Source of the DNA: an uncultured SAR86 cluster bacterium
Lineage (GTDB): Bacteria; Pseudomonadota; Gammaproteobacteria; Magnimaribacterales; Magnimaribacteraceae
Reading direction: 5' to 3'
DNA length: 64,000 bases
Assembly: GCA_902517565.1 (NCBI GenBank)
Contig: CABYCU010000002.1
Coordinates: 115,428-179,427 of the forward strand
The position numbers and the translations under genes are program-made. Below, in pieces: positions 4,768 through 6,382 of this stretch (positions are counted from its first letter, which is position 1; the number at the start of each line of letters is the position of its first letter). The notes under the pieces were generated by a model that made no database searches, was not told the DNA's origin, and saw only the letters and a list, made by a program, of their open reading frames with translations.

Positions 4768-5199
4768 ATGACAAATAATATGGATTTAAACTACAAGGAA
4801 GCAGAATCATTAATAGCGAAAATGTGGGAATCATTTGAAAAAGGAGATCTTGATCAGTTCTCTCAAACAATGTCTCAAGAAAATGATATGGTTTCGTTTG
4901 GTACTGATGCATCTGAGAGATGGGATGGTTGGAAGAATTTAGAAGAGTCTGTGCGTTTACAATTTGAGTCGTTTAAAGTGGTTAGTGTTAAGAGAAAAGA
5001 TAAAACACTTAAAATAAGTAATACCAATAGAACAGCTTGGTTTTCTGAGATTGTTGACTGGGAAATGGCCGGGGAAGATGGAAATGATATTATTGAAGGT
5101 ATTAGATACACAGGTGTAATGGAAAAAATTGCTGAAAACTGGAAAATAGTCCAATTTCACTGTTCGGTAGGTGTTGAGGGTCAGGTTCTAGAATATTAA
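4768..5199 (+). CDS. SnoaL/NTF2-like domain protein
   Basis: A 143-residue soluble protein with the cone-shaped NTF2-like pattern: an N-terminal helix (EAESLIAKMWESFEKGD), a loop with WDGWKNLEESV and alternating strands ending in NWKIVQFHCSVGV. Such proteins bind or isomerise small hydrophobic molecules, or only act as dimerisation modules; catalytic residues are not diagnostic here. It lies directly after the EEP gene, four bases away, so the two are likely co-transcribed. Its 3' end faces the small mntR-linked gene with a 24-base gap. Confidence 0.7.
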   Translation: MTNNMDLNYKEAESLIAKMWESFEKGDLDQFSQTMSQENDMVSFGTDASERWDGWKNLEESVRLQFESFKVVSVKRKDKTLKISNTNRTAWFSEIVDWEMAGEDGNDIIEGIRYTGVMEKIAENWKIVQFHCSVGVEGQVLEY

Positions 5200-5223
5200 C
5201 GGTGGCATAAGAGAGTTAATTTC

Positions 5224-5421
5224 TTAGCTTTCGGTTTCCTCTCTTGCTTTTTTTGCATCAAAAGCCGCCTGGTCCCTTTTCCATTCCTCAAGATACCATC
5301 CGTCATTACCAATTTTATTTAGATATGAATAAAAAATGCGGCCAGTTTGATCAACAAAACCTTGTTCGAAAGGCTGACCAGTAATTTGATTTATTCTTTT
5401 ATGCTCTTCCTTTAACTCCAC
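5224..5421 (-). CDS. Small 65-residue protein downstream of mntR
   Basis: I do not recognise this family. The protein is short, charged and soluble (VDQTGRIFYSYLNKIGNDGW, then a Lys/Glu-rich helix). It starts with GTG nine bases after the mntR stop, so it should be read from the mntR transcript. No cysteine or histidine cluster suggests metal binding. The tight coupling with mntR hints at a linked role, but this could be only a positional effect in a compact genome. Confidence that it is coding comes from its operon-like placement and a sensible protein-like composition. Confidence 0.55.
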   Translation of the reverse strand: MELKEEHKRINQITGQPFEQGFVDQTGRIFYSYLNKIGNDGWYLEEWKRDQAAFDAKKAREETES

Positions 5422-5430
5422 AGTAATTGA

Positions 5431-5856
5431 CTATTTAAGGAACCTTTTCATCGCATCTAATGTCTTTGAACTTACATGATGCTCTATACCTTCACTATCT
5501 ATCTCAGCATTAGCCTTATCAACGCCTAACTTGATCAAGAAATCTAAGACAATTTCATGTCGCTTTTTACTTTTTTTTGCGAGTTTATATCCTTTCTCAG
5601 TGAGCTCGATAGGTTTGTAGGATTGTGTGAGCAAAAGATCTTGATCGTTCAATCTTTTAACAGTGCGCGAGACGGTTACATGGCTAACATTAAAGAAGCG
5701 CGCCAAATCTAGTACTCTGCACTCTCCTGTTTCATCAATTAGGTCCATGACAGCTTCGACATAATCTTCTGCAGTCTCACTAGCATGACGAGTTCGGGTT
5801 TGGGAAAAAGGGACTGAACGCGCCTTGATCTTCTCTTTTGCCTTTTTCTTTTTCAT
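5431..5856 (-). CDS. mntR: MntR, manganese-responsive transcriptional repressor (DtxR family)
   Basis: A 141-residue DtxR/MntR-family repressor. After a basic N-terminus, the winged helix DNA-binding domain runs from ETAEDYVEAVMDLIDETGE through the recognition helix NVSHVTVSRTVKRL and the wing. The metal-binding and dimer part shows KKRHEIVLDFLIKLGV and DSEGIEHHVSSKTLDAM. These segments follow E. coli MntR closely from memory (RHQIV..FL..LGV, EGMEHHVS..TLDA). With Mn2+ bound it should repress uptake genes. A TATAAT -10 precedes it, and an MntR-box-like palindrome lies in the 55-base gap shared with the divergent membrane protein gene, so autoregulation and control of that gene are likely. Confidence 0.9.
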   Translation of the reverse strand: MKKKKAKEKIKARSVPFSQTRTRHASETAEDYVEAVMDLIDETGECRVLDLARFFNVSHVTVSRTVKRLNDQDLLLTQSYKPIELTEKGYKLAKKSKKRHEIVLDFLIKLGVDKANAEIDSEGIEHHVSSKTLDAMKRFLK

Positions 5857-5867
5857 AACAAATTTAA

Positions 5868-5873
5868 ATTATA
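5868..5873 (-). promoter_or_regulatory. -10 element of mntR
   Basis: On the minus strand TATAAT lies eleven bases before the mntR ATG, giving a leader of only about five bases. The MntR-box-like palindrome covers where the -35 would be, consistent with autorepression. Confidence 0.55.
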
Positions 5874-5876
5874 CTC

Positions 5877-5905
5877 TTGACATCATCCGTAGCCATTGCT
5901 ACATT
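5877..5905 (+). promoter_or_regulatory. Sigma-70 promoter of the MntX-like gene (leaderless)
   Basis: TTGACA, a 17-base spacer and TACATT make the best sigma-70 promoter in the window. Six bases separate the -10 from the GTG at 5912, so the start codon should coincide with the transcription start. The spacer contains the proposed MntR operator, so bound repressor would block polymerase. Confidence 0.7.
5889..5902. promoter_or_regulatory. Putative MntR box
   Basis: GTAGC-CATT-GCTAC is a perfect 5-4-5 palindrome between mntR and the divergent gene. It shares the core TAGC-N4-GCTA and the same geometry with the E. coli mntH MntR box as I remember it (CATAGC-N4-GCTATG). It occupies the -35/-10 spacer of the rightward promoter. 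Confidence 0.65.
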
Positions 5906-5911
5906 TGTCCC

Positions 5912-6382
5912 GTGAAAGATTACCTAAAATACGATGATATAAAGGTTTTTAAGTACGAGAATCTTTATCTAGCGATTATTTACACGATTGGTCATATTCT
6001 AATTGCAATGACTTGCAATAGGATAATTACTGGTGCCTCCCTAGATATGGCAGCTGCAGATGCTTTTGTCGAACCGATAATCAATGGCTTCTGGTTTTAT
6101 TTTCTTCTGGTTTACTTGAAAAAGATATTCGTCAAGAAAATTGAGTCAAATGACCTAACATTCGTAAATCCGAATCAAATAGGTTTTTTGTTAGCTTTTA
6201 TCTATACAGTTGGTCATATTCTAATTGCTATGACATGTAATAGATTACTTACAGGTGCACCTCTGAATCTTGCAGCTATAGACGCTTTCGTTGAGCCAAT
6301 AATTAATGGTTTCTGGTTTTTTCTGCTATTTGAGATTGTAAATAAATTTAAAGCAAAGAAAGCACTCGGCACCGCAGCATAA
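5912..6382 (+). CDS. MntX-like small inner-membrane protein, tandem DUF2061-type repeats
   Basis: A 156-residue membrane protein, starting at the GTG at 5912 rather than the ATG at 5825 of the ORF track, because the latter lies inside mntR and upstream of the promoter. It has two copies of a 44-residue unit, about 34 positions identical: IYTxGHILIAMTCNR..TGA, then DAFVEPIINGFWF. Each unit gives two membrane helices and looks like a DUF2061 domain. Divergence from mntR across an MntR-box-like palindrome makes a manganese importer of the marine MntX type the best guess; MntX was described in Roseobacters, Vibrios and SAR11. The link to MntX is from memory of its small size, membrane location and Mn-repressor control, so the substrate is inferred. 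Confidence 0.7.
   Translation: MKDYLKYDDIKVFKYENLYLAIIYTIGHILIAMTCNRIITGASLDMAAADAFVEPIINGFWFYFLLVYLKKIFVKKIESNDLTFVNPNQIGFLLAFIYTVGHILIAMTCNRLLTGAPLNLAAIDAFVEPIINGFWFFLLFEIVNKFKAKKALGTAA

Follow-up and report, generated by a model that had tools for sequence, protein, structure and literature searches.

A predicted manganese-uptake switch in SAR86 bacteria pairs an E. coli-type MntR with an MntX-like membrane protein

Two divergent genes of an uncultured SAR86 cluster bacterium, coding for the regulator MntR and an MntX-like membrane protein, are best explained as a self-contained manganese-uptake switch. We consider this explanation quite likely, with MntR, as we infer, repressing the MntX importer at a box between the two genes (Table 1). 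The genes lie in a 64,000-nucleotide stretch of DNA (hereafter, the window) from a member of one of the most abundant groups of surface-ocean bacteria. In the proposed mechanism, MntX would be a small four-helix inner-membrane protein with two DUF2061 repeats that brings Mn(II) into the cell. When Mn is replete, MntR would bind Mn(II) and, as a dimer, occupy the palindrome that separates the -35 from the -10 of the mntX promoter, thereby obstructing RNA polymerase. At low Mn, MntR would come off the DNA, allowing transcription of mntX. The box also overlaps the mntR promoter, so MntR probably restrains its own production as well.

Table 1. Predicted features of the mntR-mntX locus (positions in the window)
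Feature	Positions	Strand	Description
mntR	5431-5856	-	141 aa; E. coli-type Mn(II)-responsive regulator, DtxR/MntR family; NF008273 equivalog
mntR promoter -10 (divergent)	5868-5873	-	TATAAT on the minus strand; conserved where mntR is divergent
mntX promoter -35	5877-5882	+	TTGACA; promoter scan; invariant in 15 loci
MntR box (predicted)	5889-5902	+	GTAGC-CATT-GCTAC = GTAGCCATTGCTAC; with flank CCGTAGCCATTGCTAC, 5887-5902
mntX promoter -10	5900-5905	+	TACATT, TG-extended; overlaps the right half of the box; invariant in 15 loci
mntX-like gene	5912-6382	+	156 aa; GTG start; two-repeat DUF2061 membrane protein; PF09834

The product of mntR scores 161.8 bits against the NF008273 equivalog model (cut-off 153) and is 46% identical to the MntR of E. 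coli MG1655 across 123 amino acids. We take the Mn ligands of B. subtilis MntR to be D8, E11, H77, E99, E102, and H103. The alignment of that protein (1on1) to the window MntR is ungapped, and D, E, H, E, E, and H are kept at the Mn-ligand positions. By these sequence criteria, the regulator is an MntR of the E. coli type and would bind both Mn and DNA.

The gene controlled from the intergenic region had been described, in a sequence-only reading of this DNA, as coding for a small duplicated membrane protein resembling MntX, to be checked against the DUF2061 family, and profile searches place it in that family. The 156-amino acid protein is a tandem duplication of two repeats and exceeds the gathering cut-off of PF09834 (DUF2061) by a small margin (27.0 versus 23.1 bits). 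Its AlphaFold2 model (mean pLDDT 81) has four helices, two per repeat. Each repeat carries an invariant H, D, E, and N (H28, D50, E54, and N58 in the first; H102, D124, E128, and N132 in the second), which are plausible metal ligands, and orthologues share the position of the start codon. Searches of the PDB by fold (Foldseek with the AlphaFold2 model) or by sequence returned no relative, and the plasmid and isolate-phage collections searched for MntX gave no match. Class-wide surveys with a SAR86 profile and PF09834 returned, outside SAR86, only single-repeat DUF2061 proteins among the best matches; the six-frame PF09834 search missed the window's own gene, so these surveys are weak on absence outside SAR86. 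No MntR lay close to any of the loci retrieved in these surveys. The MntX-like protein likely imports Mn; we infer both the direction and the metal of transport.

Searches of the same assembly, which is 1.21 Mb long and 75% complete and may therefore lack other transporters, found no Nramp/MntH and no SitA/ZnuA-type binding protein. Only one Fur-family protein scored above the cut-off, and thus no separate Mur was found in this 75%-complete assembly. Given these results, MntX is the sole recognized Mn importer candidate in the assembly. The earlier idea that a regulator different from Mur controls the transporter is well supported at the sequence level by the E. coli-type MntR and the single Fur-family protein.

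The 55-base gap separating the two genes (5857-5911) holds the elements of both promoters. The sequence-only reading had placed a palindrome inside the 17-base spacer of a TTGACA/TACATT promoter. The gap, the palindrome, and the promoter with its 17-base spacer all stand, the last with a TG one base ahead of the -10. "Inside" needs amending, as the last three bases of the palindrome are also the first three of the mntX -10. The TAGC-N4-GCTA core (5890-5901), which the sequence-only reading had likened to the E. coli MntR box, indeed occurs in MG1655 before mntH (AAACATAGCAAAGGCTATGTTT) and, in two copies each, at mntS/rybA next to mntR and upstream of mntP. The mntX start codon is only 6 nt downstream of the -10, which suggests that the mRNA is probably leaderless. 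An Rfam scan of the window returned tRNAs only.

To follow the locus in relatives, we surveyed 203 genomes of the SAR86 order, 14 of them with mntR and 189 without. Both the mntR-mntX neighborhood and the palindrome proved to be conserved, as the first reading had proposed to check. The pattern CCGTAGC-N4-GCTAC was present in 14/14 mntR-positive versus 4/189 mntR-negative genomes (Fisher p = 2e-18, a nominal value because the genomes are related). Every copy in the mntR-positive genomes sits at the mntR-mntX locus, and no box of this type was found elsewhere in these genomes. MntR is, by this pattern, probably a local Mn sensor for mntX with a single target, and the locus would be a compact Mn switch with one predicted target. 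The two genes are adjacent in 13 of the 14 mntR-positive genomes, and in the remaining one (G113) the locus is cut by a contig edge. Thirteen loci are divergent and one (L034) is tandem, with mntX first.

The mntX promoter is strictly kept: 15 loci share the same TTGACA and TACATT, always 17 bases apart, while the flanks drift. The mntR -10 is TATAAT in 12 of the 13 divergent loci and TATGAT in the other, and has decayed to AATAAT or GATAAT where no divergent mntR is present (two loci). Preservation of the mntR -10 only where mntR is divergent indicates that two overlapping promoters would share one box. In several genomes the box is repeated precisely 25 bp downstream, and the start codon is further on in these. 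We also identified a SAR86-type mntX with an MntR box on a contig filed under an Opitutia MAG (L040, PKCJ01000090.1), which is probably a misbinned SAR86 contig.

These data allow the reading of the box to be weighed against alternatives. Taken alone, the 12-base core is not unusual (0.62 copies expected per window) and might pass for a chance match. The perfect 14-mer palindrome, however, has an expected count of 0.03 per 64 kb, was present in 3 of 100 shuffles, and has one copy in the whole assembly, at this locus; retention of the site in every mntR-positive genome refutes coincidence, to which we assign a negligible probability. Nor is it at all likely that the box serves only the autoregulation of mntR, with mntX as a bystander in the cassette. 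Such a role would suit a box in the common intergenic region that would overlap the mntR -35 region, but the tandem locus (L034) and the contig without mntR (L040) both retain the box together with an intact mntX promoter and have a degraded mntR -10. Hence, the box follows mntX.

We also find improbable a reading in which MntX is an exporter, of Mn or another metal, whose gene is activated by Mn-bound MntR in the way that E. coli MntR activates mntP. In every locus the box occupies the spacer and overlaps the -10 of a promoter close to consensus, a position that suits repression rather than activation. Furthermore, the assembly (75% complete) has no other recognized importer, and Roseovarius MntX is reportedly an importer (Green et al. 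2013, as cited in PMC13274385). Evidence for export comes from the dual regulatory role of MntR in E. coli (PMC4361602) and from VP1164, an MntX homologue of Vibrio parahaemolyticus that is upregulated approximately 12-fold in Mn excess and is also induced by Cu and Zn limitation (PMC13274385). The response of VP1164 to Mn excess misfits simple Mn-repressed import in that organism and counts against our preferred explanation. It also makes the transport direction of MntX disputed, and the SAR86 locus bears on whether these proteins import or export Mn.

The distribution of mntX informs the origin of the proposed MntR-MntX uptake switch. Full-length mntX is present in 39 of the 203 genomes (read from the survey table), including 26 of one genus (g19), all without mntR. 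The nearest named relatives of the window mntX are in SAR86 cluster genomes. On the tree, the mntR-linked mntX genes are consistent with having arisen once (support 71/86), and the window mntX groups with sequences of another family as well as of its own genus (98/98). This grouping, together with the differing gene surroundings, points to mntR-mntX as a cassette that moved between SAR86 lineages. Most SAR86 genomes have mntX or a shorter DUF2061 protein without mntR, and MntR is therefore not essential to the transporter. The shorter form (L003-L018 and others) is a two-repeat DUF2061-like protein that is 40-50% identical, has a repeat spacing of approximately 61 amino acids, and is encoded without mntR. 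No genome of the window's genus was seen with both the full-length and the shorter form.

The surroundings of mntX tie it to oxidative defense. In one family (f3), genes for a TonB receptor and KatG lie near mntX, joined by Ni-superoxide dismutase (Ni-SOD) where mntR is present. For example, mntR-mntX is clustered with Ni-SOD and KatG genes in four loci (L034, L037, L038, and L050), with a TonB receptor nearby. The company of these genes in relatives suggests that Mn supply probably matters for the peroxide defense of SAR86.

In genus g19, mntX is preceded by an element of approximately 65 nt, with a GAGAGGGGTG...CCCC hairpin, then another hairpin that carries a T run; an A/T-rich box resembling a -10 follows, just ahead of the start codon. 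We found 26 elements in the 25/25 g19 mntX loci that were read (L042, L045-L049, L051, and L053-L070), and a pattern search of the genus's 34 genomes was positive in 23. Among these matches, the element is directly upstream of mntX wherever the survey also placed this gene; the sole other match (G142) has no mntX in that survey. The terminator stem covaries and the first hairpin is nearly invariant. Rfam has no match to the element in the loci tested, which returned tRNAs only. One SAR86A contig (L057, JH611157.1) has tandem mntX copies (1962-2462 and 5001-5549), each with its own GAGAGGGG element. We considered and rejected the GAGAGGGG element as a terminator of the TonB-receptor gene: receptors of the same cluster in mntR-positive genomes are without it, and two different receptor clusters precede it, which argues that the element goes with mntX. 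It may be an attenuator, or merely the end of the receptor transcript. A broader proposal is that two unrelated modes of control act on the same Mn importer in SAR86. One would be the MntR switch with its single target, carried on scattered mobile cassettes; the other, in g19, would be a conserved RNA element not described before, made up of the GAGAGGGGTG hairpin and the terminator, that lies in front of mntX and responds to Mn or oxidative stress. We hold this proposal to be doubtful.

Relatives with a single repeat are also common on marine viral contigs. In IMG/VR, 315 viral contigs encode one, and all 80 of those fetched (L151-L230) have a single repeat (e.g., L168:4911-5189 and L153:4962-5204). 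The L168 gene is near ClpP-like, primase-like, and helicase-like genes. Some of the viral proteins pass PF09834; the three that were tested had no PHROG match, and isolate phages gave no match either. The viral protein may serve in metal uptake, as a dimer of half-transporters.

The closest known counterpart by description is the MntX of Roseovarius nubinhibens, reportedly described by Green, Todd and Johnston in 2013 as a marine Mn importer under the regulator Mur. The likeness is one of description: both are small inner-membrane proteins of marine bacteria held to import Mn, with a gene under an Mn-responsive repressor (in SAR86, a predicted one). The repressors differ, Mur having the Fur fold whereas the SAR86 locus has an adjacent gene for a regulator of the DtxR/MntR fold and an MntR box. 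Two Vibrio proteins are, like the SAR86 protein, called MntX in the literature: VP1164 (PMC13274385) and V. cholerae VC1688, which was named mntX among genes affected by iron and IurV (PMC7600106). Our literature searches found no report of MntR control for either. Neisseria MntX has only the name in common, as it is an exporter of a different family (LysE/DUF204-type, MntP-type; PMC9936198).

The regulatory side of the locus resembles other MntR systems. The E. coli MntR mini-regulon (mntH, mntS, and mntP) has the same regulator type and TAGC-N4-GCTA core, but its importer is the Nramp protein MntH and it has several targets, whereas the SAR86 box was found at mntX only. In Stenotrophomonas, an MntR box likewise lies between the -35 and -10 of an Mn-repressed target, and mntR and the importer gene mntH are on a bidirectional promoter (PMC13217887). 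The Stenotrophomonas module differs from the SAR86 locus in its importer, MntH, and in having the box at three loci (PMC13217887). Literature searches found no paper that brings mntX, mntR, and SAR86 together, although an earlier mention elsewhere is possible. The comparison suggests that marine lineages have placed the same type of transporter under distinct metal sensors (Mur, control linked to iron, and MntR). Judged by its genes and predicted box, the SAR86 locus would not be a system of a new kind but a known type of transporter, under Mur in Roseobacter and iron-responsive in Vibrio, with a variant form of regulation.
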